Shown here in pieces: positions 21,845-52,423 of a stretch of 64,000 nt of DNA. Source of the stretch: Globodera rostochiensis (Eukaryota; Nematoda; Chromadorea; Rhabditida; Heteroderidae); the NCBI GenBank assembly GCA_018350325.1, contig JAEVLN010000007.1, forward strand, positions 4,252,200 through 4,316,199, in the 5' to 3' direction. Positions within the stretch are counted from its first letter, which is position 1. Each line of letters starts with the position of its first letter. Made by a program: the position numbers and the translations under genes. Below the pieces are notes generated by a model that had not been told where the DNA came from, made no database searches, and worked only from the letters and a program-made list of their open reading frames with translations.

Positions 21845-24286
21845 AATTATGGTCCTTTTTGGGGTTCAATTAAACCTATTTTTTAGTTCAATCGAATCTT
21901 TTGGATTAAAATTATGAACCATTTTGGGCTAAAATGAATAATTTTAAATACAGAAAATGAAATCTTTTGGATTATTCTGAACCATTTTGGGCTAAATGAA
22001 CCTATTTTTTAAATACAGAAATAAATCTTTTGGATTATTCTGAACCATTTTGGGCTAAATGAACCTATTTTTTAAATACAGAAATAAATCTTTTGGATGA
22101 TTCTGAACCATTTTGGGCTAAATGAACCTATTTTTTAAATACAGAAATAAATCTTTTGGATTATTCTGAACCATTTTGGGCTAAATGCACCTATTTTTTA
22201 AATACAGAAATAAATCTTTTGGATTATTCTGAACCATTTTGGGCTAAATGAACCTATTTTTTAAATACAGAAATAAATCTTTTGGATTATTCTGAACCAT
22301 TTTGGGCTAAATGAACCTATTTTTTAAATACAGAAATAAATCTTTTGGATTATTCTGACCATTTTGGGCTAAATGAACCTATTTTTTAAATACAGAAATA
22401 AATCTTTTGGATTATTCTGAACCATTTTGGGCTAAATGAACCTATTTTTTAAATACAGAAATAAATCTTTTGGATTATTCTGAACCATTTTGGGCTAAAT
22501 GAACCTATTTTTTAAATACAGAAATAAATCTTTTGGATTATTCTGAACCATTTTGGGCTAAATGAACCTATTTTTCAGAAATAAATCTTTTGGATGATTC
22601 TGAACCATTTTCAGGCTAAATGCACCTATTTTTTAAATACAGAAATAAATCTTTTGGATTATTCTGAACCATTTTGGGCTAAATGAACCTATTTTTCAGA
22701 AATAAATCTTTTGGATGATTCTGAACCATTTTGGGCTAAATGAACCTATTTTTTAAATACAGAAATAAATCTTTTGGATTATTCTGAACCATTTTGGGCT
22801 AAATGAACCTATTTTTCAGAAATAAATCTTTTGGATGATTCTGAACCATTTTGGGCAAAATGAACCTATTTTTTAAATACAGAAATAAATCTTTTGGATG
22901 ATTCTGAACCATTTTCGGCTAAATGCACCTATTTTTTAAATACAGAAATAAATCTTTTGGATTATTCTGAACCATTTTGGGCTAAATGAACCTATTTTTT
23001 AAATACAGAAATAAATCTTTTGGATTATTCTGAACCATTTTGGGCTAAATGAACCTATTTTTTAAATACAGAAATAAATCTTTTGGATTATTCTGACCAT
23101 TTTGGGCTAAATGAACCTATTTTTTAAATACAGAAATAAATCTTTTGGATTATTCTGAACCATTTTGGGCTAAATGAACCTATTTTTTAAATACAGAAAT
23201 AAATCTTTTGGATTATTCTGAACCATTTTGGGCTAAATGAACCTATTTTTTAAATACAGAAATAAATCTTTTGGATTATTCTGAACCATTTTGGGCTAAA
23301 TGAACCTATTTTTCAGAAATAAATCTTTTGGATGATTCTGAACCATTTTCAGGCTAAATGCACCTATTTTTTAAATACAGAAATAAATCTTTTGGATTAT
23401 TCTGAACCATTTTGGGCTAAATGAACCTATTTTTTAAATACAGAAATAAATCTTTTGGATTATTCTGAACCATTTTGGGCTAAATGAACCTATTTTTTAA
23501 ATACAGAAATAAATCTTTTGGATTATTCTGAACCATTTTGGGCTAAATGCACCTATTTTTAAATACAGAAATAAATCTTTTGGATTATTCTGAACCATTT
23601 TGGGCTAAATGCACCTATTTTTTAAATACAGAAATAAATCTTTTGGATTATTCTGAACCATTTTGGGCTAAATGAACCTATTTTTTAAATACAGAAATAA
23701 ATCTTTTGGATTATTCTGAACCATTTTGGGCTAAATGAACCTATTTTTTAAATACAGAAATAAATCTTTTGGATTATTCTGAACCATTTTGGGCTAAATG
23801 AACCTATTTTTTAAATACAGAAATAAATCTTTTGGATTATTCTGAACCATTTTGGGCTAAATGCACCTATTTTTTAAATACAGAAATAAATCTTTTGGAT
23901 GCTTCTGAACCATTTTGGGCTAAATGAACCTATTTTTCGGAAATAAATCTTTTGGATGATTCTGAACCATTTTCGGCTAAATGCACCTATTTTTTAAATA
24001 CAGAAATAAATCTTTTGGATTATTCTGAACCATTTTGGGCTAAATGAACCTATTTTTTAAATACAGAAATAAATCTTTTGGATTATTCTGAACCATTTTG
24101 GGCTAAATGAACCTATTTTTTAAATACAGAAATAAATCTTTTGGATTATTCTGAACCATTTTGGGCTAAATGAACCTATTTTTTAAATACAGAAATAAAT
24201 CTTTTGGATTATTATGAACCATTTTGGGCTAAATGCACCTATTTTTTAAATACAGAAATAAATCTTTTGGATTATTCTGAACCATT
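21845..24286. repeat. 63-bp minisatellite, about 39 copies
   Basis: A 63-bp unit containing AATCTTTTGGATTATTCTG, AACCATTTTGGGCTAAATG and AACCTATTTTTTAAATACAG repeats head to tail. A shorter variant lacking TAAATACAG recurs at 22570, 22690, 22810, 23310 and 23935. A block of units is itself repeated, which points to unequal exchange. The first two or three units are degenerate. Confidence 0.95.
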
Positions 24287-24595
24287 TTTTTCCCCGTATG
24301 TACATCGGGGGTTGGCTTTTTGCTATTTTTCTACCAGTTTCAACGCCAATTTTGAGATTTTTTTTCACATGCAATAAATTCGAATTTTGAATTTATCATG
24401 CCAAAATCTTTAGAAAAAATGAAATGAGTGCTTGATTAAGACTTTTACACTTCAAAATAGTTTCCCCGTATGTACATCGGGTTTGGAATCTTTTTGCATT
24501 TTTTCTAACAGTTTAAACGCCAATTTTGCGATTTTTCGACATTAAATTCGAATTTTGAATTTTTCATGCCAAAATCTTTATAGTTTTGGGAAATG
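24287..24595. repeat. Two tandem copies of a segment of about 175 bp
   Basis: Each copy begins CCCCGTATGTACATCGGG and continues through CGCCAATTTTG and TCATGCCAAAATCTTTA. The second copy starts near 24463. The opening motif is a near-palindrome. Confidence 0.8.
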
Positions 24596-24599
24596 ATCA

Positions 24600-25020
24600 A
24601 GCATTTCTGGGTACAAAAAGATTGAGTTTTGGATTGTGGTTTATCAGGAATTTCTGAGCCTATAAAAATTGAGTTTTTAATTGATCAATCATTTCTGGCC
24701 CATTAAAATTGAGTTTTTTGGTTTATCAAGAATTTCTGTGCCTATAAAATTTGAGTTTTTTGGTTTGATCAATCATTTCTGGGCCCATAAAAATTGAGTT
24801 TTTTGGTTTATCAAGAATTTCTGTGCCTATGATATTGAGTTTTTGGATTGAGCAGCCATTTGTTGGCAGATAAAAATTGAGTTTTGAAAATGATCAAGAA
24901 TTTCTGGATACAAGAAAATTGAGTTTTGGATTGTGGTCAAGAATTTCTCCTATAAAAATTGAGTTTTTAGATTAATCAAAAATTTTTGGGCCTATAAAAA
25001 TTGAGTTTTTGGATTGAAAT
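24600..25020. repeat. Degenerate short repeats with AAAATTGAGTTTT
   Basis: About nine irregular copies of a 40-60 bp segment carry CCTATAAAAATTGAGTTTTTGG and GATCAAGAATTTCTGG variants. I see no coding potential. Confidence 0.75.
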
Positions 25021-25278: not shown

Positions 25279-27094
25279 ATGCCGCGATTACTATATTGTT
25301 CGCCTGAACGTCTACCCGCGTCTCCAACGGGAATCCCGGTCATGGCGCAAAACATTGACCTGTCAATCTTTGACAAACCGATCAATGTCCGTGTTCATAT
25401 ATAATTATATAATCAAAACAAATTATTTTTTAAAAGAATATTATTTTGACATTTATAAAAATTTCAATATTTTAATAATTTTTTCATCCCCCTTCATTTT
25501 ACCTTAAAGGGTCGCGTTTGGCGCGTTGACTGCGCACGTCGAGACCTTCTGCTAGCCCGCATTCAAACGGAAGGCAATGCGGTTGGGCATGTGTCGCTTC
25601 TTAGGAACATGGTCGACGAGCTGCAGGAGTGTGCCAGATTGGCGCGCGTTGCCAAATGTCAGAAGCCAATCAAAGTGCCAGCCTGGGACTCTTCATGTCG
25701 CGACGGATGGCAGGGAGTGGAGCTTTCGAAAGAAACCTTCAGCAGCAAATGGGGCAATAAGTCAAAATGGGATCCCAACTCCTTGTAATATTTCTTTTTT
25801 TTCGCATTCCCCATTTTTGTTCATTTTAAGCGACAATGCTTGGTTCACGCCGACACCTTTTGCGACGCGAAAATCTTGTGGGTGGGCAAAATGGGTCTCC
25901 TGCACAGGCCCTGTATCGAGCTGGATTCTTCGCACTGGACCAGTCGGCTTGGCTCCTGTTTGTTTTTTTTCAGTAGCCGCTCAATAAATTACATTAACCC
26001 AAACCATCCCCTTATTTTTCTTTAAAGGTCAAGCAGAACAAGCAGATGCCTTTGCCTCGGAGCACAAAAGTGACGAACCGCATAACTCCTTCCAAGCACT
26101 CCGGCCCGTGGATGACTGTCGTCAAGGGGAAGGTGCATCTGTACATTTAACCTTTTTGTTTTATTTTAACCTTTCTATTTGAGCCTGTGCCGCAGCCATC
26201 TTGTACAGCTCCACAGCCAGTGAAATATCCGCTCGGCTATGCTCCAGTTAAAGTGCACATAAGCAATCATTTTAAATTCAACCCAATTTTTACAGCAAAC
26301 AAACAAGTTACGGGGCGGCGGCGTATCACGTGACCGTGCGAAACGCGAGGCCAAAAAAGCTCAGGTGCAACAAAAGCGCTCGGGTCCGTCTACTGTTAAC
26401 TCTTACACTCTGTTTGTCCTTCACTTTCTTTTATACAGTAGACGCAACCAACTTGGCTCACTCCCCATCTCTGAGTTCCAGCGGGCAAAAGGTTGGACGA
26501 CGCACTGTCCACTGCAGGCACGCAGGCTCAACGGGAGGCCGGCCAAAACATTGTCCGTTCTTCAGTGGTTGAACATGCTCTTACAATTTATTTAAGCTGC
26601 AGCGTCTCCCTCTTCACTGCCAATTTCCTTCGTTTCTCCTGCAGCACCTCCAAGTGGTGAATGTGTAGTGCAACATGCTTCTGTTTCAAGCCCAGCCGCG
26701 TCTATAGAAACAACTATTTCTACGGGAACACCGCGTGCGCGCTCCGCACTGAGCGGCCGTTTTGAAAAAAGTTCTAAACTTTTTTTATTCCAATAATTAT
26801 TTGCACCTTATAGCTTTCCCTCGAATCCATTATGATGCGGATGGCCTATCTGTCGCTCCTTGTACACCCGCAGAACGCTCTATTCTCGCGGATGAGGAAG
26901 AAAACATCTTGATGCCTCCGCCAATTTGCCGTCCAACACGACAGCGCAAGCCTCCACGGCGTTATTCGTCGTCTTCATTGGAACGTTGGCCCGACGTTCC
27001 GATAACCTGCCAGTGCAAGAACAACACGCACACCGGGTTCTGCGCCTCGCAGTCTGCCAATCATACGCCAAGATACTATAACTGTCTTGTGCCG
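25279..27094 (+). other. N-terminal region of the Helitron protein (exons 1-9)
   Basis: Nine small exons encode about 432 residues with no domain I recognise. Lys/Arg-rich stretches (RAKREAKKAQVQQKR in exon 6; RPTRQRKPPRRY in exon 9) suggest DNA binding or nuclear import. Exon 7 contains a possible metal-binding C-x-H...H-C cluster, and exon 9 contains CQCKNNTHTGFC. The reading frame and splice phases are consistent throughout, but there is no homologue in the window to confirm them. The region could contain small errors at the exon 1/2 junction. Confidence 0.55.
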
Positions 27095-30000
27095 GTAAAA
27101 GATTGTCTTCAATTTCTAGGATATTATTCATTCCTATTATAGTTTGGAGACAAGCACCTCTATCGCTGCCCCCATTGTGATGCTCTGCTACTGAAGAGTG
27201 AAGCGTCAGGTCAATCCGCTTTTTCAAAATGCTGCGCGAAAGGGCAAGTCAAAATGGACCGGCAATTCTACGAACTACAGCGTCCTTTTCTTCGCCCTGC
27301 GCAACGCCAACAAAAGGATGAGGAAGAGTTCAACCAACTTGATGACAACACAAAGCAGCTGGATTTACTACTAAACGACCTGATCATGGGGCGCCATGCG
27401 CTTTCCAAAAAATTCATCAAGTGCGTTGATCGCTACAACCACGAAATGGCCTATGGGACTGCAACAACGGAACAAAAACCCGTTCAAGGCGGCTATCAAC
27501 CTGTGAAAATGAACGGCATGGTCACCTACCGGCTGAGCGGCATCAACCCTCCGAGAAATGCCGATGGTTCGACGCGCGATGAACTTTGCGGTCAAGTGTG
27601 GACTTTGAACCCAGACGACGCCATTGAACTTCGAAAGCGGCGTAACATGGATGCTAACCTCAAATTGGATGTTCGTCTTTTTTGCTCATCTTTCATAATG
27701 TATTCCTCCTTTTTTGAAGGAAGAGCTTTTGGGACTGCTCCACCAATTGTTGGCACATCAGCAGATTGGTCATCCGCTTTCTGGGCTCTACTTCCATCTT
27801 AAACGCGTTTATGAAGAGGCAAAAGAACAGCAAGCGCAAGGCCAAGGCCCTTCCGTAGATACCATGCGCATCCGGCTTCTGACCCGTGGCGAAGTGATGC
27901 GGCAAAATCTCCCTGAAGTCAACAACATTCACCCGCATCAACTTCAACTACCCGAATCGGTTGATCAACTGGCTCAGGTAGAAAACGCAACTTTTTTTTA
28001 TTTTCTACCTGCCTTTTCCAGCTTTTCTTTGTTGACGGCGATGATGGCCTACCACCAGAGGCGGAAAAGGGCGTGATGCTGAAGACAAAAAGTGGAGCAC
28101 TGACTGTTCTTCCATGGTGGGACAACTGGATCGACGGAGCCATTTGCCCATTGCTGTTCCCGTGTGGAGGAAGCGTATGGAAACCATCAATTCCATTGGA
28201 GAAGCTGGACTCAACCCTTACACACATGCAACAACAGACTCAGCAACAACCTGAACAGCAACAAGCCATTGGTGAAGAAGACGTTGCCTGGCTGTCCAAC
28301 CCTTATGAAGGCGAAGAAGAAGACATTCTGGCAGAACCCGATGATAATGGCGAAGGCGAGCAACTTCTTCTTGAAGCCGAGCCAAAGAAGGTCCACCACG
28401 TTTCGAGGAGCCAAGCAGCTCGGTACATGATGCAAATCCGGGCTCCACCACGCAACGCTGGTGCTGCGCGACGTAACCAATGGCACGACCCGCACTGGCT
28501 TTGGTGGGCGCGACGACTGGCCGAGTTCTTTGTCTGTCTGCTCAACAACCGCATTGACCGGGACAAATTCGCCAACATCAAAAAGAACCAGCCGGAGCAG
28601 CGGTCAATCCTTCCCACCCACTTGGTCAAGCACTTTGAGCGCGAAGCCCGCAAACAACTTGGTCATCACTTCCTTTTCTTTTTCTTTTTATTGCTGTTTT
28701 TATAGATCCTCAAGGCCAGCCATTAGGAGAGCGTGCGCAGCTTGGCCGCATTTTTCTTGCCCCAAGGACATTGCGCGGCTCTCGAGCGTACTATCAGCTG
28801 CAGTTCGCCGACGCAATGGCCATCTGCCGTCAACTTGGAGCTCCGCACTTGCTCATCACGTTCACCATGAACAGTGCTGCAGCAGAATTTGACACCATGC
28901 TGTGGGAAGGACAACACTGGTACAACCGCCCAGACATCTCCGACAGGCTCTTCATTGACAAATCAAAGGAGTTTTTGAAGGACATTGTTCAGCGGCAAGT
29001 GATGGGCCCCGTCAAGGCATGGTTCTACAGTGTCGAGCATCAAGAAAGGTGAGCAACTTTTTCGTATTTCACTCTTTTTGTCATTCCTTCTCTTTTGCAG
29101 AGGTCTTCCGCACATACACCTGTGCCTCATCTTAGACTTTGCGCGAATGCAGATAAGCGTGGAAGACTACATCGACGAGTACATCAGCGCTGAAATCCCC
29201 GATCTGCCTCGCGCCGACGACAACAGCCATGCGGCCAAACTTCAACGTTTGTTTCACCGCTTCATCCTAGGCAACATGTACCACACCTGTTCACCCCGGT
29301 ATTGTCTCGTCGATGGCAAATGCACGAAGCATTTCCCGGTGAGTTATTTTTCATAAGCACACTAATTCATAGAAGCGTGTTTACATAGACTAAAACACAA
29401 AAATATGTACTAAGGCTACTTTATGGACTAAAACATTAAAAAGTTTCAAAATACGAATTATAAAATAGAAACATAGTGCTAAAACTTGACTGTTATAAAT
29501 AAAACCAATTTTTTTTCTTCTTTTTTCTTTTATAGCGCCCCTTCGCCGAACAAACTGTGATCGACGACCGAATTGTTGGTGTACAGTACAGACGACGTCC
29601 GCCTGCTCAGTCCGAGACCGAACGACATCAGAACCCGGAGCGCTATTCCAGTGCTGTGAGCGACAAGGACAACCGTTTCGTCGTCCCTCACAACCGGTTC
29701 CTGGCACTAAAGTATCGCTCGCAGTGAGTCATCTTTTCATGTTACCTGTTTTATTAAATTAATAAATTCGCCTCCCCCCTCTTATAGCATCAATGTCGAG
29801 TGGGTCCAGGGCGATGCCTGCATCAAATACGTACTCAAGTACGTGATGAAAGGCTGCCAGCTGGCCTTTGTGCAAATTGTCAACGACACTGCGATGACTA
29901 CTGCAGGAAATGTTGTCGTCAACTACGACGAATTCCGCCAGATCCGCATGGCCCGCTATCAAACACCGAACGAAGCTGTGCTAAGCATCTGGGGGAACAA

Positions 30001-33000
30001 AATCGTCCGCAAATCCCATCAGGTGGATATAGTTTTTTCTCATAACTTTAATGCAAATAATTCTTTTAATTGACAATTTACTGTTAAATACCAAAATACA
30101 TCAGGTCGAACACCAACGATTCCATCTGCCGGACCAAAATCGCATTGTAGTACTTGTCGGGCGAGAAGAAGAGCGAGCGGAGGAGGAAAGAGCGCGCATT
30201 GAGGCTGAACAAGACCAACCAAGTCCGCTGACAGCATACTTCGCGCTGAACATCGCCATTGGCCTTGAGCTTGCACAACAACATACCTTTCTGACCATCT
30301 GTAACGACTACTGCTACGACCGACGAGCAAACCAGTGGAAAAAACGTGCCCAGCAACGCAAAAATCACTTGGCAATGCTGGAGGCGGCTTCTGCTGGAAA
30401 CCCTGAACATCAAGTTAGAAAGCAAAGTGCCTTGTCTTCCCTTTCTTACCTTAATGTCTTAGGCGCTGCGAATGCTGTTGTTGCACGTCCGTGGTCCAAC
30501 CGGATGGGGCGATTTGTATGCTGGACATACAACCTTCGTTGAAGCAGCAAAAGCAATGGGCCTACTTGAGGATTCTTCAATTTGGGTCAACACCATCTTG
30601 GAGGCCCTTTCTGGACTGCCAACCTTTCGCCGGCGCCTTAATTGGACGGCTGTGCTCTTCGCTAACTCCGCCATTTTGGATGCTTCTTCCGTCCTCGACC
30701 GAGTCCTTCTGGATTCAAGGCGCCTGCTAACTCCACGTGCGATGCTTCAACATGACCTTGATGCAGCTCGACAGTACGCTCTGTTTCGCATGGAATTGGT
30801 CTTCCGTCTCCATGGTGTTGTTCCTGGCAACTTCAACAGCTGCTGCGAACGCTTGGGCCTTCCGGCCCCTGTGGGCTTTGTTATGCCAACCGAAGACATC
30901 ATTGAGGTCTTTACCATAAATTTCCTTCCCAAATCTTTGCAACTTATTTTTGAAGGCCGAGTTCAATGCTGGTGACTATGGCAACCGGATGTGGGCTCAG
31001 CTCATGGAAGGGGACGATGACCAGAACGACTATGCATCAGATGGACAGATGACAACAGCACAGTACGCAGCCAAAGATGCGGAGTTCAGCCCTCAGCTGA
31101 ATGACAAGCAACGCAACTTCCTTGACGCTGTTTGTGCATCCGTTCTTCGGCGGCGGCACGAGATGTTGGAGCCACCACAACAGTTGTTCATGCTGACCGG
31201 AGATGGTGGAACGGGCAAGACTTTTGTCTACAATGTCAGTTTTTATTTCATTGTTTTCTTTTACCCAAACAAATTGTTCCCTATGCCAGGCGCTGATTGC
31301 GAGGCTGAAGTCGAAAATGGCCTGTCGACTTTCTGCGACTGCATCAACGGGCATTGCCGCGGAACTTCTTTTCGAAGGCGCAACGCTGCATTCAAAGCTG
31401 CGTATTCCAATCAATATGGACGACGACACCATGCCAATGCTCGACTACGAAAGCGACCCTGCCAAACTACTCCGCGCACTTGAGCTCCTCATCATTGACG
31501 AAATCAGCATTGCCGACAAAAATGTCATCATCTACGTCGACAAACTGCTACGGTCAATTGATGTGCCTAACCACGACAAGCACTTTGGTGGAAAGGTGGG
31601 CAGCTGCTAATTCTTAACTTTGTTCATTGCTACTTTTTTGTAAGATCGTCGTTTTTGGCGGAGACTGGAAGCAGCTGCTACCAGTTGCAGAAAGGTCTGG
31701 CGCGGTCGGCTTGGACAACGTCAACATGGCTTACTGGATGTCGGTCAAAACAACGGCATGGTTCACCAACGCACTGATCAACATCCACCGTTTGACCGTC
31801 AACATGCGAGTTGCCGGCAACCAAGCAGACTACAAGCGCACGCTCAAGATCTGGGGCACTGGAGTAACTGTTCGAACAGCCGCAACAGACGACAGACGCC
31901 GGCCCTATGTTCAACTATGCCCCTCCCTTTGCCTTAGCTCTGAGGATGCCTTGATTGAGTTTGTGTTCGGCGACGCGCTCAAGGATCCTTTGGCCAACAT
32001 TGAGCAGCTTCGTGGCGCCGCCATCCTCTGTCCTCTGAACAAGGACACCTTCAAGCTGAACTCGGAGCTCATGGTTAGGATGACTTTTTTTTATTATTTC
32101 CCAAAAGATCCCATCCTCTCAATCAGGCGCGCATCTCCAATGCCGTGCCAAATTCTGCACAATTGTCGGACCGAATCTACACTTCCGTCGATACTGTTGA
32201 CCCCGACAGCCCATGCGACGTGTTGGCACTGAATGTGGCGGAGCGGTACATCGAAAACATCTACGGCAAAACACCGCCAGGAATGCCTGAACACAGTCTG
32301 CAGCTCAAGATCGGCGCTGTGATGATGGTCATCAAAAACATCAGCGTCGCTCAAGGCCTCTGCAATGGCACCCGCGTGCAGATTATCGCCCTCGGAGACA
32401 ACATCATCACTTGCCGCTACATCCAGGGGCCCCGAGCCGGCACAGAGTTCAAGATGTACCGTCATCGCTTCCGCTTTGGTGGCGAAAGGGAGGCAACACG
32501 CCACGGCGCTGTGAAGTGGACTCGCTTGCAGTTTCCTCTTCGCCCAGGCTTTGTGATCACAACACACAAAGCGCAGGGTAACTTTATTATGTAGTGTTCG
32601 GCTTATCAACTTTTAGGGTTTTGCCCAAATCAGACCAACATTTTGAGACTAAAAAAGCTGAAAAACATTATTCGAAAGGCATGTTAAGCCGGGGCAAATT
32701 TCAAAATCAAAAAAGATCAAAACTTAAGAGCCTACGTTTTACTTTTTTTCAACTTATCAAAAGGGAAAAAATCAAAAAACGCCTAAGTTTTGGTTCAAAG
32801 TTTTGCAGGTCCAACTTTTGGGTCTCTAAATTATCTTTTTAATACTCAAGAGTAAATTCCTTCTTAAAGGCCAAACTCTTGCACGCGTCGGTGTCCATCT
32901 CTCATCCTCGCAGTGCTTTGCCCATGGCCAATTCTACGTGGCCATGTCTCGCGTCCGATCCAGTGACGACATCCGCGTTTTGACCAGCGCGCGCAGCTCT

Positions 33001-35240
33001 AACTATGTTCAGAACTGGGTCGTTCAAGCAGTTGTGGACAAGGAGGACATTGAGGAGGCCCGTCAATATGCAGGCCCTGTAATGAACAAATTTTTTTTGC
33101 CAATTATCTCTTATTTTTTTCCAGACTGTGGTCATGCCTACTCCATCTGGCGCCAGTGCTTTGCTCGCTCCTCACCCACCTCCATCAGAGCCAACAAACA
33201 ACGAGCAGTCGGATGACTCGAGCGATGACGACAATGATGCCCAACGACCGCAACAACACCGTGGTCGGTGCCAAGTTGCATCACCGACTCTACCTTCGGG
33301 GCAGCAGCTTTTTCCTGATCAACAGCCAACTACGTCCGTAGTCCTTCCTCCGCCAGTACAACAACTCAGCCGCCGAATACACATAGACCGTGGACTCTAC
33401 TTCGAAGATGTGTTGGGAGATGGCGACTGTTTTTACCGGTAAAAATGGTCTTATCCTAAGCACTGCTTCATTTTTGTTTTAGCGCCATTGTTCGACATCT
33501 CTTTGGTTACGACAACGGCGAAGCGGAGCTGAACGAATGTGACGCGATGGCGCAGGAAGCTGCTCAAAGGAGCTTGAGACGCGCAGTGGCAAGATCCATA
33601 CAACAGCACTACCACTTTGCGCCCGCAGAAGAACGTCAACGAATGCACTATGCCGTCTTTCCCGTGGAGTGCTTGCCAGCAGATGATCCGGACTATCAGC
33701 TGCGACAACTTTTCGAGCGCGCTGGCATCGACAACATCTCCACCTATGCTCAAAGGATTTTTTATCCGGCGGCCAACGACCCAGCCGCCTGGGCAAATGC
33801 CAACTTCGAAGGGCTGTACGCTGCTGACTTCCTTGGCCGCAACATCTACGTGCTCGACGACGTCGCGGATGCCAACGGTCGCCATCAACAACGGGACCTG
33901 TACATTCTGATGCCAGGCTTCCAGCAATATGTAAGGATTCACTCGCCATCCTTCAATCTTTTTGCATTATTAAGCGCATTGAACGCCTGACGCACAACGA
34001 CTTCCTGGCCATCATGCGGACTCCACGTTTTGTGCGACGCGGAGAAATGCAAGTGGTGCAGCAGCAAAATGGGCCGATCGAAGTGAGAAATCCCATCATC
34101 ATTTGCCGTCGGCAGAACCACTTCGAGGCTGTACACACGGTAAATTTTTTTTATTTATCAAAGAGTTTTCTCTTTACTGTTTTTGTTCTTACAGTCCTAC
34201 CGCCGTCAGCGCACCTCCACCGGCTTCGACCGGCTCAGCGCTGTTCCTGCTTATCAGTGGTCGGCAACAGAAGACACGCATCATTTCAGCCCGCCCACGA
34301 GTGCACCACAACAACTGTCCCCTCTGCTCAGAATCGAAGTCGCAAGACAACAGCAATCGCCAGAATATCAGCGAGGTTCTCCAAGTGTGGGCAGAATGAG
34401 CGAGGAGCGAGCTAGCGGTCAGATGAGCATGCTTGCTGACGACATGGAAAACGTAACATAAAAAATCTTCGGTACTTCTAAAAAACTATTTGATTTTTAA
34501 GCTGATGTCGCCTGAGAAGAAAAGAGGTCGTCCTTCAAATACCAGCCCTCTTCGCATGACTGCATTTGAACGCCAACAACGGGAAAAAGCTGACAAAAAA
34601 CAGCGCTGGAGCGAGATGATTGCAGCAGAGGGAAGGAGGCTGCTTCAACAAGCAGATGAGGCCCAACAATGTGAACGGGACCGACAAACAGCTGAACACC
34701 AGCAGTTGGAAGCAGAGCAGCGCCGGGAAAAGCTTCAACAGCGACACGGGCGCATCACACAGTTGTGGGAGCCGCAGACTCGTGCTTCCCCGGCCCCAAC
34801 GTCCTTCTCTGGTAGATTAAAACTAATTTTAATATTTTTGAACCTGCCTCCCATTCACTTGCAGCACCAAACGCTTTCACCGCGCGACCTTCTCCACCGC
34901 CATCGCCTGCTCCAAAGGGCAAAGGTCCTTTGGTCCAACGCCTTCTTTATCAATGCTCTTTATAGGTCAAGTCTCAGCAATGGACTCGGTTCAAGAGCAG
35001 AGCTTGGATGAGTTCGAGACTGCCACTGCTGGCCTTTCACGCGCCCAGTTGAAGCGCCTGCCGTACACTGTCGCAGGCAAACCATCAGGCGACTGCTGCA
35101 TTTGTAAGCTGGAGATTCGCGCCAACAACGCAATAACAACGCTGCCCTGTGGTCACAACAACTTCCACACGTCATGCTTGAAGAAGTGGCTGAAAACGAG
35201 CGCCACCTGCCCGAACTGCAGAGCCGAAATAAATCTTTAA
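25279..35240 (+). CDS. Helitron Rep/helicase with C-terminal OTU protease and RING-H2 domains
   Basis: This would be the replicative transposase of a Helitron, acting on DNA in the nucleus. My exons: 25279-25386, 25510-25784, 25831-25957, 26028-26132, 26196-26252, 26296-26383, 26439-26567, 26645-26770, 26814-27094, 27143-27670, 27720-27977, 28022-28661, 28706-29048, 29101-29338, 29536-29723, 29788-30022, 30105-30413, 30463-30906, 30956-31234, 31290-31595, 31645-32073, 32127-32577, 32870-33078, 33125-33438, 33483-33930, 33975-34139, 34195-34452, 34502-34811, 34865-34924, 34966-35240. All junctions are GT...AG and all phases agree, giving about 2660 residues. In order: basic N-terminus, CxxC...CC zinc motif (about residues 441-463), Helitron N-domain, HUH (about 1026), two tyrosines (about 1178 and 1182), Walker A (about 1575), Walker B (about 1652), OTU (about 2150-2360), coiled coil, RING (2613-2654). 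The first exons and the start codon are the least certain (an upstream in-frame ATG lies at 25183). It could be a possibly active autonomous copy. Confidence 0.85.
27143..29048 (+). other. Helitron zinc motif and N-terminal domain (exons 10-13)
   Basis: Exon 10 opens with the Helitron-type zinc motif: YRCPHCDALL, then FSKCCAKGQV, four cysteines spaced as in known Helitron proteins. Exon 13 has LGRIFLAPRTLRGSRAYY and DAMAICRQLGAPHLLITFT, matching the conserved block before the Rep domain of the Helitron_like_N family. Exon 12 carries a Gln-rich and acidic insert of about 100 residues (about 28225-28400) that I would not expect in the family core. It is probably a flexible linker. Confidence 0.85.
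29101..30022 (+). other. Rep nuclease core: HUH motif and two catalytic tyrosines (exons 14-16)
   Basis: Exon 14 begins RGLPHIHLCLIL, whose HIH is the HUH metal-binding motif of rolling-circle nucleases. Exon 16 contains INVEWVQGDACIKYVLKYVM. The two tyrosines, four residues apart, match the paired catalytic tyrosines of Helitron Rep. KHFPRPFAEQT and FVVPHNRFLALKY are further family blocks. All catalytic residues are present, so the domain is predicted to be competent. The 197-nt intron at 29339-29535 is longer than its neighbours. Confidence 0.88.
30105..33078 (+). other. PIF1-family helicase domain (exons 17-23)
   Basis: Superfamily 1B helicase motifs appear in order: GDGGTGKTF (Walker A, exon 19), ELLIIDEIS (Walker B, exon 20), VFGGDWKQLLPV (motif III, exon 21), IHRLTVNMR and GAAILCPLNKDTFKLN (exon 21), VAQGLCNGTRVQI and VITTHKAQG (exon 22), then QTLARVGVHL and FYVAMSRV (exon 23). 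The Helitron-specific block ALRMLLLHVRGPTGW with AKAMGLLED precedes it in exon 18. All ATPase residues are intact. It would unwind the strand released by the Rep domain. Confidence 0.9.
33125..34139 (+). other. OTU-type cysteine protease domain (exons 24-26)
   Basis: DVLGDGDCFYR, spliced to AIVRHLFGY, is the classic OTU nucleophile block: DGxC with a catalytic Cys at about residue 2153. About 200 residues later IICRRQNHFEAVHT supplies the catalytic His. Before it lies an acidic Ser/Asp linker and a Pro-rich stretch. OTU domains mostly remove ubiquitin; such domains are known in some Helentron/Helitron2 proteins. It is joined in frame to the helicase by a phase-0 intron at 33079-33124. The second copy at 49725 preserves the domain completely. 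Confidence 0.85.
34195..34924 (+). other. Linker with charged coiled coil (exons 27-29)
   Basis: Exon 27 is Gln/Ser/Arg-rich and disordered-looking. Exon 28 begins LMSPEKKRGRPSN, an AT-hook-like KRGRP, followed by about 75 residues rich in Glu, Gln, Lys and Arg with heptad-like spacing, typical of a coiled coil. Exon 29 is a Pro/Ala/Lys-rich 20-residue exon. The region may dimerise the RING or bind DNA. Confidence 0.7.
34966..35240 (+). other. C-terminal RING-H2 finger (exon 30)
   Basis: The protein ends with CCIC, LPCGH, FHTSCLKKWL and CPNCRAEINL. The eight ligands are Cx2C, Cx1H, x3H, x2C, x10C and x2C, a complete RING-H2 pattern with the W-L pair usual in E3 ubiquitin ligases. The stop codon is the TAA at 35238-35240. 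The 41-nt intron before it (34925-34965) is the shortest in the gene. It has the same length in the second copy, which supports the splice choice. Confidence 0.88.
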
Positions 35241-35566: not shown

Positions 35567-35673
35567 CCTGTGTTTTTGCCCCAAAGCACAGGGGAGGGTT
35601 GCCTCGCAAAAAAAGAGACGACCTTCACGCGGTGCGAGGCGTTAGTACTTATTCAGCTGCAACGCTGAATAAG
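35567..35673 (+). repeat. Triple hairpin at the Helitron 3' side
   Basis: Three consecutive inverted repeats occur: CCTGTG/CACAGG (35567-35592), GCCTCGCA/TGCGAGGC (35601-35640) and CTTATTCAGC/GCTGAATAAG with loop TGCAAC (35648-35673). All three are kept in the second copy at about 52180-52286. A hairpin near the 3' end is a Helitron hallmark that halts rolling-circle transfer. The last is the strongest, with a perfect 10-bp stem. Confidence 0.88.
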
Positions 35674-35817
35674 GAAGCCAACAGTCTCTCATAAAAAATT
35701 TAAAAAATTTTCAAAAATTTTTTTTTTGAAAAAACATTTTTTTGTAACCCGAACACCCTAATCACCTAGAAACAGCCAAAGCAATGCAAGGCGCAGCCGT
35801 CCGCTGCAGGCGTCTAG
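35674..35817 (+). repeat. Helitron 3' terminus, shared with satellite units
   Basis: After the hairpins comes A/T sequence, then CACCTAGAAACAGCC and GCAGCCGTCCGCTGC (a 5-bp stem) ending AGGCGTCTAG, followed by TT and the next unit's 5' block. The last 70 bp or so correspond to CCCTAGGAACAG...GGCGTCTAG of the satellite units. CTAG followed by T fits the CTRR-T terminus of Helitrons. The exact terminus is inferred. Confidence 0.65.
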
Positions 35818-37459
35818 TTCTACTTATAGGGAAATTCTGTTTGGGGTGCCGGGGGAAAAAGATATACCGGGATTCCCTGAGGTTCGATTTGTCTGAAAAT
35901 TTGCACCAGCATAAAGTAACAGGGGTAGCACAAAAGTATGTTGTCCGAATTTTCAATTTCGACCTACTAAGGGTCGAACGGTCTAACCGCCCAAAAAGAA
36001 GCGCCCCTTTTTGCCTACCATGTGGCAGTTGGAGGGGCATAAGTGGTTTAAAGCATGCTTTTGGCGGCTTGGGTTTGGAGAAAGAGCACAACTAGACAAA
36101 ATTTGCGTTCGAATGGTATATCATGTGTGGGGGTAGGTCTAACCATCTTCGAAATCTGCTCTGCACAAAATGTCGAAAAATCCCACTTTTTTTGACTGTT
36201 TTGGGAGAAATTCACAAAAACGATGGGGTTTGCTCGAATCGGGTCGGGGTTGGTTAATTATAAGTTAAGGGCATAATAAGCTACAAAAAATGTTTTTTGA
36301 CCGGGTCTGTAAAAGTTAGACATGAGGTCGAAATGGGTCGTCAAAGTTGAAAAAATTTATTTTTTTTTGCGCCAACTTTTATGCTGAAAATTTTTGGGTT
36401 GAGTATCAGGCTGATTTTGTGGTAGGGCATGCGCCAATGTGTGGGCTTCAAAATGATGTATCACTTGCCCGGTTTGGTTCGGGTTGGGGGTCGATATGGG
36501 GGGTCTAACCAATTTATGCCCATATTTGGCTGGAGTCAAAAAATGAAAAGTTCGAATTTTGTTTCAGGCAGTTAATTTATATATATTTAGACTCAACTCG
36601 ATGAGCTGAGTCGAATAAAAAAAAGTTTGACCACTTCTGATCAAAACTGATCAAGTTACGGTATTTTCAATTTTGGACAAAAATTTAAAAAATTAAATTT
36701 TGAAATTTTAATTTTTTTAAAATAAATTTTATATAATTAAATTCTTCTTAAAAAACTGAATTAAACAAAAAAAAGTTTGACCACTTCTGATCAAAACTGA
36801 TCAAGTTATGGAATTTTCAATTTTAAGCAAAAATTTAAAAAATTAAATTTTGAAATTTTAAATTTTTAAATATAAATTTTATATAATTAAATTCAGCATA
36901 AAAAACTGAGTTAAACAAAAAAAAGTTTGACCATTTCTGATCAAAATTGATCGAGATATGGAAAGATCAAGGAGGAAGAGAGATAGTGTGGAAAAGTGAT
37001 AGAAAGGGGTAGAGATACGAGCGTAAGAAGAGAGAGAGAACGTTTCTGCTGGTGCAACCCCCCAGTAGTGCACCCCATAGAACAATTGTTGTAGTGAAAA
37101 GTTATGTGGAGTAGAAATTTATCAAATTCAAATTTTTAAAAAAAATTGGAGGAAATTGACGTAAATTAATTAAATAAAGTAAAAACAAATTGAAATAAAG
37201 CAAAAATTAAAAAATCGTTCAAAAAGGCTTGTCCGACCTCTAAAAAGGCTTGCCTACCCCCCATAAAAAGGCTTGCCCGCCCCAGAAAGGGCTTGCCCAG
37301 CCAAGAGCAGAAGGCTCATAATTAAATTAATAAAGAAAAAATACAATCAAATTAATTGAAAAAGAAACAAACAAATTTTTTTGAAAACCCCTAGGAACAG
37401 TAGCCACAGGCAAAGCCCCCCTATAACCCAAATGCTTTAGCCGCCCCGCAGGCGTCTAG
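35818..37459 (+). repeat. Satellite unit 14
   Basis: This 1.64-kb full unit directly follows the Helitron end. It starts TTCTACTTATAGGG, has its hairpin at about 36590 and two subrepeats, and a G+C block at 37225-37315. It ends GCAGGCGTCTAG. Confidence 0.85.
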
Positions 37460-39426
37460 TTACTAATTATAAGGAAATTGTGTTTTGAATGGATGGGGGA
37501 AATCATTGATCTTTTTTTTGTGCTGTCCGATTTGTCTGAAAATTTGCACAAAAATAAAGTAACTGGCGTAGCACAAACCAATGTTGAAAGAATTTTCAAT
37601 TTCGACCTAGCAAGGGTCGAACGGTCTAACCGCCCAAAAAGATGAGCCCCTTTTTGCCTACCATGTTGGGGTTGGAGGGTCAAAAGTGGTTTAAAGCAGG
37701 ATCTGGGAGGGTTGGGTTTGGAGAAAGAGCACAACTAGACAAAATTTGCGTTCGAATGGTATATCATATGTGGGGGTAAGTCGAACTTGTGATAGACTTT
37801 TGCGTGTCACAAAAAGTCGAAAAAGTACACTTTTTTTAGTCTGTTTTGGGAGAAATTCATAAAAACGATGGGGTTTGCTCGGATCGGCTTGGGGTTGGTT
37901 AATCATAAGTTGGGGTCATAATAAGCTACAAAAAATGTTTCTTGAACGGGTCTGTAAAAGTTCGACATGTGGTAGAAATGGGTCGTCAAAGTTGGAAAAT
38001 TTATTTTTTTTTTGCGCCAAGTTACATGCTGAAAATTTTTAGGTTGAGCTTTGGGCTGATTTTGTGGTAGGGCATGCCCCAATGTCTGAGCTTCAAAATG
38101 AGATATGACTTGCCCGGTTTGGTTCGGGTTGGGGGTCGAAATGGGGGGTCTAACCAATTTATGCCTATATTTGGCTGGGGTCAAAAATGGAAAAGTTCGA
38201 ATTTCGCCTTAGGCAGTTAATTTATATATTTTTAGACTCAGCTCGATGAGCTGAGTCGAACAAAAAAATGTTTGCTTGGTTCTGATCAAAACTGATCAAG
38301 TTATGGAATTTTCAATTTTGGACAAAAATTTAAAAAATTAAATTTTGAAATTTTAAATTTTTTTAAATAATTTAAATATAATTAAATTCAGCATAAAAAG
38401 CTGAGCCAAACTAAAAAAAGTTTGTTCAGTTTTGATCAAAACTGATCAAGTTGCGGTAAGATCAATTTTGAGCAAAAATTTAAAAAATTAAATTGTAAAT
38501 TTTTTAAAATAAATTTTATAATTAAATTCAGCTTGAAAAGCTGAGTTAAACAAAAAAAAAGATTGATTGGTTTGATCAAAACTGATCGAGATATAGGCAG
38601 ATCAAGGGGGAAGAGAAATAGTGTGGAAAAAGGAGAGAAAGTGGTAGAGATACGAGCGTAAGGAGAGAGAGAGAACTTTACTGCTGGTGAAATCCCCCAG
38701 TAATGCACCCCATAGAACAATTGTGTTGGCGAAAAGTAAAGTGGAGAGGAAATTAATTTAATTTAATTAAATAATAAATAAATTCAAAATGAAAAATTAA
38801 ATTAAAAAAATACAATTTTAGGTTAAAAAATTTCAAATAGTAGAGACGTGTTAAATGGAGAGAACTTAACCAAAATTAAATAAAACAAACTTCAATTGAA
38901 AAAAGCAATAAATTAAAAGTCTCGCGAAAGGACTTGCCCGGCCTCGGTGATGGCTTGCCCGGCCCCGGTGCTGGCTTGCCCGGCCCCGGTGCTGGCTTGC
39001 CCGGCCCCGGGGATGGCTTGCCCGGCCCCGGTGATGGCTTGCCCGGCCCCGGGGATGGCTTGCGCCGCCCCGGAGACGGACTGCCCGGCCATGAACTAAC
39101 TCATCATTAAATTAAAATATAAAAAATATTAAAATAAAAATAAATTAAATAAAAAAAAGAAAAAAAGTAAAAAACCAATCGGAAAGGGCTCTTCCAGACC
39201 CATAAAAAGGCTTTCCAGCCCCAGAAAGGGCTTGCCCAGCCCAATAAAAAAGCTTGCTCTCCTAAGTAAGGGCTTGGCCGGCCAAGAGCAGAAGACTCAT
39301 AATTAAAAGAAATAAATAAAAAATAAAAAAAAATAAATTCAAATAGGAAAAATGTCTAACCAAGGAACATTAGCCAAAGGCAAAGCCCCCCTATATTTTT
39401 TGGTTCCACCGTCCACATGGCGTCTA
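37460..39426 (+). repeat. Satellite unit 15, with 21-bp array
   Basis: The unit is closely related to unit 11 along its length, including the GGATGGGGGAAATCATTG start and the same deleted CATGGCGTCTA end. Its 21-bp array (38931-39095) has only about 7 copies. The two are copies of one segment with different array lengths. Confidence 0.82.
38931..39095. repeat. 21-bp G+C minisatellite, about 7 copies
   Basis: It has the same CTTGCCCGGCCCCGGTG motif as at 17782, but contracted. The flanking sequences match those of the longer array. Confidence 0.9.
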
Positions 39427-44091: not shown

Positions 44092-46433
44092 TGAGCTAAA
44101 TAGCTTCTAAAAATTACTAAAATTTGGGGCATAAGTTGACCAAAAAATTTGTTATTCATATGATATCATTTTTTTGCACTTTCTTAAAAGAAAAACATAA
44201 ATTCATATTTATAGCTAATATTTTTGAAGTTAAATTTATTAAAAATTTGGGGTTTAGTAGTGCATCAATTAAAAAAAAAACTATTATGGCTTTTAAACAC
44301 ACACGAACACCTATGAATTTATTAAATAGTCTTGAGACTGAAATGCCTATTAATTTATAAAAAATTAGCAGTGCATTGCAAGCGCCTGGTAAACTTTACA
44401 GTCTTTAAAACGTGCATGTTCAAAAAAAATTCAAGGCTTTAAAAAGCCAAGTAGCATGTTTTAAACAGAATGGCATTGCAATAGACAAAAGATTTTATTC
44501 GAGGATATCGACAAATCATGAATAAATGTAGACGTACTAATACATTTAAAAACCTATATTATAATTAATTCTTTTATAAAAATCAAATTGAAATTAAATT
44601 TTTCAAAAAAAAGAATTCGAAGAAGGGGGCTATTTGTCTCAAAATTGATCAGCCCATATTTCAGACAGTTCTGATCAGAAAGGAAGATTCATTTTTAAGT
44701 AACATTATGCCAAAACATAAAAATTGTTAAGCGGTGTTTAGAAATTTTTAAAATAGCATAACAAATCAACAAAAAAGTCTACAAAGCTCCTTAAAATCCA
44801 CAAAAAACTAATTTGTAACTAATTATTAGGGCCACAAATTATATGGACAAAAAATATGGATAAAAAATTGTCCAAATATGGGCAAAATTGCAAAATATGG
44901 ATGAAATATGGATAAAATTTTTTTTCAAATATAGCAAAAAATAGGCAAGAGTTTCCTAATTGAAGTAATAAGAGAAATAAAAATTTTTATATTTAAATTA
45001 AAGGCATTTCAGAAAAATTTTTTGAAATAAGCAGAATTTTAAAACTTTCATTTTTTGGTGGCAAAATTTTTAGCCGCGAAAAAGGCAATTTTTAGAGGTG
45101 ACTTCTTTGCATATAAAAAGTCTTAGGTGTGTATTTTCCGTGTTTATTGCATTTTTTGTTAAGGAATTTTTGAAAAATGGCGAAATATGGATAAAAATCG
45201 CAAATATGGAAATATATGGAAAATATGGATTATAAAATGGGCTCTAGAAGCTCCAACCAAAGCTAAAAACATCATTTATGGCAATTATACGCTGTTCCGA
45301 GTGCGCAGTAAAAATATGGATTTCCATATAATTTGTGGCCCTACTAATTATCAATATAAATAAATAAACACTTTATGAAATAATATGAGAAAAATCAGAA
45401 ATTAATTTTTTGGTAAAAATTGATAGCCTATATCTCGAGCAGTGTTGGTCAAAATTAAACAAACTTTTTTTTTTGTTGAGTTCAGCTTTTTAAGCTGAAT
45501 TTAATTAAATAAAATTTATTTTAAAAAAATAAAAATTTCAAAATTTAATATTTTAAATTTTTGCTTAAAATTGAACATACCGTAACCTGATCAGTTTTAA
45601 TCAAAACTCAACAAACTTTTTTTTGTTCGACTCAGCTCATCGAGCTGAGTCTAAACATATACACAATTACCCCCTAAGGCAAAATTCGAACTTTTCATTT
45701 TTTGACCCCAGCCAAATATATGCATAAATTGGTTAGACCCCCCATACCGACCCCCATCCCAAACCAAAACGGGCAATTGATATACCATTTTGAAGCTTAT
45801 TTCTTAGCGCACCTCCTACCACAAAATCAAGCCAAAGCTCAACCCAAAAATTTTCACCATAAAAGTTGGCGCAAAAAAAATTAATTTTTCCCAACTTTGA
45901 CAAGCCAGTTCGACCCCAAGTCGAACTCTTGCATACCCGACCAAGAAACTTTTTTTGTAGCTAATTATGTCCCCAACTTATAATTAACCAACCCCGACCC
46001 GATCCGAGCAAACCCCATCGTTTTTGTGAATTTCTCCCAAAACAGCCAAAAAAAAGTGCACTTTTTCGACTTTTTGTCGCCAGCATAAGTCTATCACAGT
46101 TTAGACCTACCCCCACAAATGATATACCATTCGAACGCAAATTTTGTCTAGTTGTGCCCTTTCTCCAAAGCCAAAGCGCGCAAAGCATGCTTTAAACCAC
46201 TTTTGCCCCTCCAACTGCAGCGTGGTACCCAAAAAGGGGCTCTTCTTTTTGCGCGGTTAGACCGTTCGACCCTTAGTAGGTCGAATTTGAAAATTTCAAA
46301 AACGTAACTTTGTAAAAAGCCTGGAACTTTATTTTTGTGCAAATTTTCAGCCAAATCGAACCACACAAAAAAAAGTGTAGTTCATTTCCCCCGGCACCTG
46401 AAAGAGAATTTCCCTATAGTATGAACTAGACGC
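44092..46433. repeat. Left arm of a large inverted repeat
   Basis: Its reverse complement matches 52424-54760. It consists of about 1.35 kb of non-satellite A+T-rich DNA with a 517-bp hAT-like element, then a minus-strand satellite unit (about 45470-46433). Non-satellite parts are nearly identical. The satellite part shows more differences, such as GTGCAC versus TCGCAC near the centre, suggesting gene conversion with other units. Confidence 0.9.
44827..45343. mobile_element. Non-autonomous hAT-like element, copy 1
   Basis: The inverted ends TAGGGCCACAAATTATATGG and CCATATAATTTGTGGCCCTA are perfect over 20 bp. The flanks are the 8-bp duplication CTAATTAT (44819-44826 and 45344-45351). An 8-bp duplication and TAGGG ends are typical of the hAT superfamily. 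The 517-bp interior has no transposase but repeats ATATGGATAAA, possible transposase-binding sites. Confidence 0.88.
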
Positions 46434-49724: not shown

Positions 49725-51848
49725 ACTGCGGCCCTTCAGCCTCTTCCACCCGGGCCCAGTTCTTTGCTCGCTCCTCGCCCAACTCCAACTGAACCACATA
49801 ACAACGAAGACCCATCTGACTCAAGCGATGACGACGATGATGACCAACGCCCGCAACGACACCGGGGGCGCTGCCAAGTTGCAACTCCGTCTTTACCTTC
49901 GGGACAGCAGATCTTTTCTGCTCAACAGCCGACTACGTCCGTTGTCCTTCCACCGCCAGTACAGCAACTCAGCCGCCGAATACACATAGACCGTGGGCTC
50001 TACTTCGAAGATGTGCTGGGAGATGGCGACTGTTTTTACCGGTAAAAATGGTCTTATCCTAGCACTGCTTCATTTGTGTTTTAGCGCCATTGTTCGCCAT
50101 CTCTTTGGCTACGACAACGGCGAAGCGGAGCTGAGCGAATGTGACGCGATGGCGCAGGAAGCTGCTCAACGAAGCTTAAGACGTGCAGTGGCAAGATCCA
50201 TACAACAGCGCTACAACTTTGCGCCCGAAGAAGAGCGTCAACGAATGCATTATGCGGTCTTTCCGGTGGAGGGCTTGCCAGCAGATGACCCGGATTATCA
50301 GCTGCGCCAACTTTTCGCGCGCGCTGGCATTGAAAACATCCCCAGCTATGCTCAACGGATTTTTTATCCGGCGGCCAACGACCCAGCCGCTTGGGCAAAT
50401 GCCAACTTCGAAGGCTTGTATGCTGCAGACGTCCTTGGCCGCAACATCTATGTGCTCGACGACGTCGCGGATGCCAACGGTCGCCATCAACAACGGGACC
50501 TGTACATTCTGATGCCAGGCTTCCAACAATATGTAGTTTTTGAAACAATCCATAACCCTTGCTCTCCTTTTTGTTAAGCGCATCGAACGTCTGACGCATA
50601 ACGACTTCCTAGCGATCCAGCGGACTCCACGCTTTGTGCGACGCGGAGAAATGCAAGTGGTGCATCAGCAAAATGGGCCAATCGAAGTCCAAAATCCCAT
50701 TATCATACGGCGGAGGCAGAACCATTTCGATGCTGTACACACGGTAAAAATTCTTCTTATTTATCAAAGGGTTTTCTTTTTACTTTTTTTGTTCTTACAG
50801 TCCTACCGCCGTCAGCGCACCTCCACCGGTTTCGACCGGCTCAGCGCCGTTCCTGCTTATCAGTGGTCGGCAAGTGAAGACGCGCACCATCTCAGCCCGT
50901 CCACGAGTGTTGTACAACAATTTTCGCCTCTGCTCAGAGTCGAAGTGGCGAGACAACAACAATCGCCAGAACATCAGCGAATGTCTCCGAGTGTGCTTGG
51001 AATGAGCGGTGAGCGCGCTAGCGGTCAGATGAGCCTACTTGCCGAAGACATGGAAAATGTCATTTTAAAAACATCTTCGCTTCTTCAAAAAACTGTTTGC
51101 TTTTTAAGCTTATGTCGCCTGAGAAGAAAAGAGTCCGCCCTTCAAAGGCCAGTCCTCTTCGCGCGCCTGCTTTTGAACGCCAACAACGGGAGAAGGCTGA
51201 GAAAAAACAGCGATGGAGTGACATGATGGCAGCAGAGGGGAGGAGGCAACTTCAGCAGGCAGAGGAGGCCCAACAATGCGAACGCGAACGACAAGCAGTT
51301 GAACACCAGCAGCTGGAAGTAGAGGAGCGCCTACAAAAGCTTCACCAGCGACGCGAGCACATCACGCAGTTGTGGGAGCCGCAGTTACGTGCATCTCCGG
51401 CCCCAACCTCCTTTTCTGGTATTTTTCATAACTCTGTTAACATTTTTTCACCTTGCCCCACTCACACTTTAGCACCAAACGCTTTCACCGTGCGCCCTTC
51501 TCCACCGTCATCGTCTGCTCCAAAGGGCAAAGGTCCTTTCGGCCAACGCCTTCTTTATCAATGTTCTTTATAGACCAAGGCGCAGCGATTGACTCTGTTC
51601 AAGAGCAGAGCTTGGATGACTTCGAGTCTGCTACTGCTGGCCTTTCGCGCGCACAGCTGAAGCGCCTGCCGTACACGGTTGCAGGCAAACCATCGGGTGA
51701 CTGCTGCATTTGTACGCTGGAGATCCGCGCCAACAACGCAATAACAACGCTGCCCTGTGGCCACAACAACTTCCACACGTCCTGCTTGAAGAAGTGGTTG
51801 AAGACGAGCGCCACCTGCCCCAACTGCCGAGCTGAAATTAATCTTTAA
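49725..51848 (+). pseudogene. Partial Helitron gene: OTU, coiled coil and RING exons only
   Basis: Exons 49725-50041, 50085-50532, 50579-50743, 50801-51058, 51109-51418, 51473-51532 and 51574-51848 correspond one to one with exons 24-30 of the full gene. All splice sites are kept, and there is no stop or frameshift. The OTU Cys (GDGDCFYR), the OTU His (RRQNHFDAVHT) and all eight RING ligands are present. In the last 33 codons the two copies differ at about eight sites, all synonymous. There is no recognised start. A frame from ATG 49614 runs through the retained satellite into the OTU exon, so a product is conceivable, but I call it a gene fragment. Confidence 0.8.
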
Positions 51849-52286: not shown

Positions 52287-52423
52287 GAAGCCAACAGTCT
52301 CTCTCACCAAAAATTTTAAAAATTAAAAAAAAAAAAAAATTTTTGAAAAACATTTGTTTGCAACCCGAACACCCGAATCACCTAGGAACAGCCTTCCACA
52401 CTAAAGCAAAGCCGTCCGCTGCA

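Follow-up and report, generated by a model that had tools for sequence, protein, structure and literature searches.

An intact-looking Helitron gene of Globodera rostochiensis carries OTU and RING-H2 domains predicted to form a ubiquitin-editing pair of the A20 kind

A 64,000-nucleotide stretch of the Globodera rostochiensis genome, hereafter the window (positions 4252200-4316199 of contig JAEVLN010000007.1, here called C67, in the 92.6-Mb assembly GCA_018350325.1, which was also the genome searched), contains an intact-looking Helitron gene in which the Rep and PIF1 helicase domains are followed by a predicted OTU protease domain and a C-terminal RING-H2 domain. OTU proteases remove ubiquitin, and RING-H2 domains bring a ubiquitin-conjugating enzyme (E2) to a substrate; in A20 a ubiquitin-removing and a ligase activity are joined in one chain. 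We predict that the two C-terminal domains of the Helitron protein work as a ubiquitin-editing pair of the A20 kind, a reading to which we give a probability of about one half and by which a single protein would both attach and remove ubiquitin. It draws on the gene structure, the order of the domains, their catalytic and zinc-binding residues, purifying selection and the recurrence of the arrangement in other copies and species, together with a predicted OTU fold.

The gene was modelled with a splice script, and the resulting 32-exon reading frame is free of internal stops. An independent model, UniRef A0A914H8H6 (G. rostochiensis, 2581 amino acids; P0001 below), matches the window letter for letter with 27 exons and a start at 25609, and its boundaries are identical to those of the script model in all 21 exons from 27143 to the gene end. 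The exons 5' of 27143 (residues 1-331 of the script model) are uncertain; the domain, motif and constraint results do not depend on them. The earlier note on this DNA, which described a 30-exon gene without frameshift, was thus right about the kind of gene and its continuous frame, and differed in the exon count. By its sequence the locus appears to be one intact gene with the order Rep-PIF1-OTU-RING. Its features, all on the plus strand, are as follows.

25279..35240, plus: whole gene, script splice model, 32 exons, 2559 amino acids
27143..28486, plus: region before Rep, starting at the first exon block common to both models
28487..29122, plus: Rep, Pfam Helitron_like_N (PF14214), residues 749-928, E 1.5e-31
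29111..29128, plus: HUH motif HIHLCL (HIH), overlapping or directly behind the Rep profile match
29828..29851, plus: paired tyrosines, motif YVLKYVMK
31094..31830, plus: PIF1 helicase, Pfam PF05970, residues 1439-1649, E 7.8e-39
31199..31222, plus: Walker A motif of PIF1
31485..31508, plus: Walker B motif of PIF1
32277..32393, plus: Pif1_2B, Pfam PF21530, residues 1781-1819, E 1.5e-14
33359..34212, plus: OTU domain by predicted fold and motifs, residues 2029-2265
33419..33483, plus: OTU Cys box (DGDCF), split by an intron
34116..34133, plus: OTU His box (NHF)
34517..34537, plus: motif KKRGRPS in the linker between OTU and RING
34924..35237, plus: C-terminal region with RING-H2 by Pfam and motif, residues 2469-2559; zf-RING_2 (PF13639) match at residues 2511-2554, E 1.6e-12

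The protein contains the residues needed to nick and to unwind DNA, as well as those of the OTU catalytic centre and of the zinc-binding sites. It has the two-tyrosine HUH Rep of the Helitron Rep-helicases, the pair in YVLKYVMK being presumably the nuclease tyrosines, and a PIF1-type helicase behind it. The RING-H2 domain has its eight C3H2C3 zinc ligands in RING spacing (residues 2512-2553, within 35094-35219). It aligns best with RNF38, with I, W and R at the matching positions of what we take to be the E2-contact places, namely the hydrophobic residue before ligand 2, the Trp in the KWLK loop and the Arg after the last ligand. The linker between OTU and RING holds, besides KKRGRPS, which we assume to be an AT-hook-like motif, a long charged stretch that by eye is likely a coiled coil. 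The earlier claim of Rep, PIF1 and RING-H2 domains with their key residues is therefore borne out by profile and motif alike; of the four profiles proposed for checking, all but OTU gave strong matches.

For OTU, the Cys and His boxes and the predicted fold agree with the claimed protease, and the Pfam profile falls short. In the joined protein the OTU profile matched residues 2048-2098 with E 0.037 and 15.0 bits, where the cut-off is 23.3 bits, and in the OTU piece alone it reached E 6.6e-4 and 20.6 bits, still below the cut-off; a fold comparison was therefore needed. With the predicted fold as query, the best 11 Foldseek matches were OTU proteases, as were 50 of 50 among the matches listed by VIA-align, and A20 structures were among the results of the structure comparison. 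The domain thus has, as modelled, an OTU fold. In an alignment of 13 OTU pieces, C22, N222, H223 and F224 (piece numbering) were invariant. Relatives described below straddle the same profile cut-off: P0016 (26.6 bits) and P0017 (26.9 bits) pass, and P0022 (20.4) and P0018 (18.1) fail.

A second copy (copy A) lies on the minus strand of contig C7, at 14.7-25.2 kb (C7:14709-25220), and preserves all of the 21 exons. Where exon lengths differ, they do so by multiples of three, and all 20 GT donors and all 20 AG acceptors are kept; when exons 12-32 are joined, the single stop is the last codon. Identity to the window gene is 0.84 in exons and 0.64 in introns with gaps left out (0.56 with gaps counted, minus one intron of 44 versus 487 bases). 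The ratio of nonsynonymous to synonymous substitution rates (dN/dS) between the two copies was estimated by the method of Nei and Gojobori, with bootstrap ranges given here in brackets. It was 0.079 before Rep, where the synonymous rate (dS) of 1.57 is near saturation, 0.044 in Rep, 0.104 in the middle region and 0.108 (0.080-0.143) in PIF1. The first linker gave 0.388 (0.209-0.719), OTU 0.104 (0.050-0.184), the second linker 0.307 (0.206-0.478) and RING 0.094 (0.025-0.191). OTU and RING are under purifying selection comparable to that on the helicase; this constraint is a property of the lineage and says nothing on the activity of the window copy. The dS value of 1.57 found before Rep drops to 0.29 in OTU and is 0.36-0.41 behind it. 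The copies are therefore mosaics, for which reason dN/dS was relied on rather than identity, and they seem to exchange their 3' parts.

A third copy (copy E2), which lies in the window, consists of the OTU-RING part, without Rep and helicase:

49725..51848, plus: exons 26-32, seven exons intact

Its joined exons contain no internal stop, and upstream the open frame continues into repeat-derived DNA with an in-frame ATG; it is possibly a free-standing OTU-RING gene. An inverted repeat of 2.35 kb, 97.4% identical (44092-46441 and 52416-54760), flanks this copy on both sides and looks like a recent rearrangement. Across the genome at least four OTU matches were found, one of them (on contig C12) with stops, and at least 11 RING matches, of which three are close (93-100%). 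The first 60 kb of C7 (C7:1-60000) hold three further partial copies besides copy A.

Searching 5.8 billion sequences with the OTU-RING part of the whole protein returned 12 long proteins (P0001-P0012), two from G. rostochiensis and ten from G. pallida, and so the same domain order, which the earlier note had proposed to look for in related genomes, was found in the sister species. The OTU Cys box is present in ten of these (it is missing from P0011 and P0012), and the RING is complete in six (P0001-P0004, P0006 and P0008). Used as a short-protein query, the OTU-RING part found five G. pallida proteins, each with a complete RING; two of them (P0109 and P0110) begin behind the catalytic Cys.

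A search with the Rep-helicase part yielded 105 proteins, 27 from Globodera and Heterodera and 78 from others, whose domain content was taken from precomputed Pfam annotation. Of the 105, 11 carry RING (PF13639) and 12 carry Macro (PF01661), and every one of these belongs to the 27 cyst-nematode proteins. Three Heterodera proteins (P0016, P0017 and P0022) have the order Rep, PIF1, Macro, OTU, RING; together with P0023 and P0028 they form a set of five that all have PIF1 and RING, four of them also having Rep by Pfam. The RING is thus not unique to the window locus, recurring in the Globodera family and in a second lineage, Heterodera. P0018 (H. trifolii) has Rep, PIF1, Macro and OTU without RING, and P0025 (G. 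rostochiensis) has Rep, Pif1_2B, Macro and an OTU-like stretch by motif, with MATH and BTB below or near the cut-off. MATH and BTB are parts of ubiquitin-ligase adaptors, and their presence in P0025 may reflect a real fusion or joined gene models.

In a quick tree under a simple model (43 rows, the query plus 42 hand-picked from the 104 others, none dropped later; long-branch warnings for P0027 with P0031 and P0038 with P0040), the 27 cyst-nematode rows were united with a support of 100 and divided into a Globodera OTU-RING clade versus a Macro clade. Within the latter, the Heterodera proteins that carry RING, five in number, share a single branch (support 100) next to P0024. The ADP-ribose motif VNAAN...GGGV is lost in all five and intact in six of the seven RING-less Macro proteins (P0018-P0021, P0025 and P0026). 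Because P0018, P0019, P0020 and P0026 are close kin, this count stands for few events, about two, and carries no statistic. No Macro domain was found by Pfam in the window protein, and BLAST with three Macro domains against it and P0001-P0012 found no remnant up to E 1. As the Macro motif is lost or absent where the RING is present, Macro and RING may be alternatives. A wider reading, which we hold tentatively and consider rather unlikely as a whole, is that cyst-nematode Helitrons carry exchangeable host-response enzymes around a constant OTU, some lineages an intact Macro and others a RING. The RING would then occur in two lineages, in which the Macro motif has decayed or the Macro domain is absent. 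The window gene would be the ligase form, which writes and erases ubiquitin, and would make this element the first DNA transposon with a ubiquitin editor of the A20 kind.

For the ubiquitin-editing pair itself we propose the following mechanism. As in other Helitrons, Rep would nick the element and the helicase would unwind it. The RING would recruit an E2 enzyme of the host and ubiquitinate a host factor that sits on the element, such as one acting in silencing or repair, and OTU would strip ubiquitin from the transposase itself, including tags added by its own RING. The transposase would thereby outlive what it attacks, and the two domains together could tune protein stability in the host. 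In related elements a Macro (ADP-ribose) module stands in front of OTU, and a single host response might be met with either RING or Macro. Zebrafish Helitrons encode an active deubiquitinase that belongs to another class and, as its authors suggest, protects transposition proteins from degradation; according to the available part of that paper, transposon OTU domains had been untested for activity (PMC9741609).

Several observations weigh against the ubiquitin-editing reading. The window OTU lies below the Pfam cut-off in the whole protein and as an isolated piece, and its structure model is of middling confidence. Four of the 12 long Globodera proteins (P0005, P0007, P0009 and P0011) break off partway through the RING, all of them directly after NFHT, and two (P0010 and P0012) lack the RING; these six cases are either gene-model errors or real splicing. 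As for the NFHT break, either the four models share an error of prediction or alternative splicing halves the RING there. At this point the window has a GT within the coding sequence. As the copies are mosaics, the histories of the domains are partly separate, and the low number of copies (at least four OTU matches) also fits a dying or domesticated family. P0024, with neither RING nor Macro motif, opposes a simple swap, and the Heterodera RING has Ser in the E2-contact loop where the window RING has Trp. The RINGs of Globodera and those of Heterodera share only 37-39% identity; one origin of the two was considered and not retained, this identity being too low to decide.

Two rival explanations, neither of them likely, survive best. 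OTU might mainly be a polyprotein-processing protease that cuts the long Rep-helicase protein in a variable linker and frees an OTU-RING piece to act apart from the transposase. The linkers beside OTU evolve fast (dN/dS 0.39 and 0.31) between conserved blocks, the intact copy E2 in the window consists of OTU-RING alone and has an ATG in frame upstream, and the five shorter G. pallida proteins carry the C-terminal part, although these may be truncated copies or partial models, as the late starts of P0109 and P0110 indicate. Viral deubiquitinases are described in the accessible text of PMC9741609 as frequently doubling as polyprotein processors. In the second, for which the chances are similarly poor, OTU, perhaps with the RING, would target host DNA-repair proteins and help to resolve transposition, rather than act on transposase stability or silencing. 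Macro domains, which fit ADP-ribose signalling at broken DNA, occur in relatives, and the Ginger authors, in the part of their paper available, had already suggested a repair role for the OTU and Ulp1 domains of other transposons (PMC2836005).

It is quite improbable that the gene is a domesticated former Helitron whose OTU-RING part now serves the nematode. Few copies (at least four OTU matches and at least three close RING matches among at least 11) and strong conservation would fit, but the copies sit among repeat arrays, several are truncated, both Globodera species have several divergent ones, and the nuclease and helicase residues are retained. That OTU and RING are passengers without function for the element, as gene fragments captured by Helitrons can be (PMC6431247, as far as its text was available), is already disfavoured and very improbable, since dN/dS in both is about 0.1, as in PIF1, and their order is kept in the copies of two Globodera species and, with Macro, in Heterodera. 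Equally hard to credit is a RING that is a mere gene-model extension behind a transcript ending after OTU, as the four broken and two RING-less long proteins might suggest, because in three G. rostochiensis loci the last exon retains its splice sites, reading frame and stop codon, with a RING-core dN/dS of 0.02 to 0.13.

Candidate end structures and repeats adjoin the gene on its 3' side:

35601..35673, plus: two inverted repeats 3' of the stop codon (35601-35640 and 35648-35673)
35806..36810, plus: repeat unit of about 1 kb, found at 23 places in the window

The inverted repeats are possibly the 3' end structure of the element, and by eye the 3' flank at 35.6-36.1 kb resembles the tails of three G. 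pallida models. Neither at these hairpins nor at the starts of the repeat units (about 35806) was a clear terminal motif found by comparison with canonical Helitron ends, and no clean element border could be fixed from either. The repeat unit recurs, for example, at 3365-4369, 6136-7141, 37448-38452 and 52421-53425, and 150-bp tandem repeats come after it. All three of the window gene, copy A and the OTU-RING-only copy run into this unit, which might be the 3' portion of the element itself or belong to a non-autonomous partner. Immediately upstream of the gene are two tandem arrays, one with a 63-bp unit (38.5 copies, 21895-24288) and one with a 42-bp unit (24637-25017), parts of the latter matching DNA 5' of another copy on C7. 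Copies sit near the end of C67 and the start of C7. A position at chromosome ends was considered and dropped: no TTAGGC array was found in the last 5.4 kb of C67 or the first 10 kb of C7, and the genome-wide matches (318 forward, 1279 reverse) do not, at the places listed, locate telomeres.

As reasons why transposons carry deubiquitinases, protection of transposition proteins (PMC9741609) and activation of repair (PMC2836005) are the guesses offered in the portions available. A predicted ligase and a predicted deubiquitinase under equal constraint in one protein make it testable whether the two work against each other on the transposase or are directed at a host factor, and both domains are small enough for ordinary biochemistry. 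The Macro/RING pattern, if true, would tie transposon survival to the ubiquitin and ADP-ribose responses.

The earlier note had set the gene in the context of Helentrons. That OTU occurs in Helitrons is known, but this element is no Helentron: the apurinic/apyrimidinic (AP) endonuclease (PF03372) is absent among the 17 Pfam families matched by the window protein up to E 0.1, and membership was rejected because the endonuclease is lacking. Relatives bearing PF03372 also score far weaker (ten, E 5.6e-20 to 4.1e-15) than many without it (1e-147 to 1e-100). The RING-H2 behind a Helitron OTU appears to be new, as the earlier note supposed: no report of a RING in a Helitron was found in the open-licence literature, so far as its texts were available (the repeat databases Repbase and Dfam were not searched). 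With the same scope and the same two databases unsearched, no report of Macro in a Helitron was found; the Heterodera Macro-OTU-RING Helitron proteins are database entries for which no paper was found. The available parts of two papers that name both Helitrons and Globodera (PMC11118728 and PMC6367775) do not mention OTU.

In the accessible sections of PMC4067079, PMC9741609 and PMC6431247, the Helentron and Helitron OTU proteins likewise join a rolling-circle Rep-helicase to an OTU-like cysteine protease; as described there, they are chiefly Helentrons with AP endonuclease and RING goes unmentioned, whereas the window element has no endonuclease and a RING-H2 behind OTU. The zebrafish VTD deubiquitinases are also encoded by Helitrons, and cleavage of K48 and K63 chains has been shown for VTD, but they belong to the herpes tegument-type protease class and no ligase domain is mentioned in the text available (PMC9741609), unlike the window protein with its OTU and RING. 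Ginger1 transposases carry a C-terminal OTU or Ulp1 protease, not both, and also exchange modules; in contrast to the Rep-helicase with RING of the window they are DDE transposases, and the available text mentions no RING (PMC2836005). Burro giant retrotransposons, as far as their description was available, are mobile elements with ubiquitin-related motifs (RING-type and MATH), like the window element, but unlike this Helitron they are long terminal repeat retrotransposons with unrelated enzymes (PMC6431247). The five Heterodera Macro-OTU-RING proteins (P0016, P0017, P0022, P0023 and P0028) share with the window protein the cyst-nematode clade in the tree of Rep-helicases and differ from it in a degenerate Macro between helicase and OTU and in a RING that is not at the very end. 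RAG1, a protein derived from a Transib transposase, has a RING domain; unlike the window protein it is a DDE recombinase with an N-terminal RING and no deubiquitinase. A20 (TNFAIP3) resembles the window protein as predicted here, in that a single chain holds an OTU deubiquitinase and, behind it, a ligase module that binds zinc, but it has A20-type zinc fingers and is a host immune regulator, whereas the window protein is a transposase with RING-H2, which would work like A20 and is not a member of its family.

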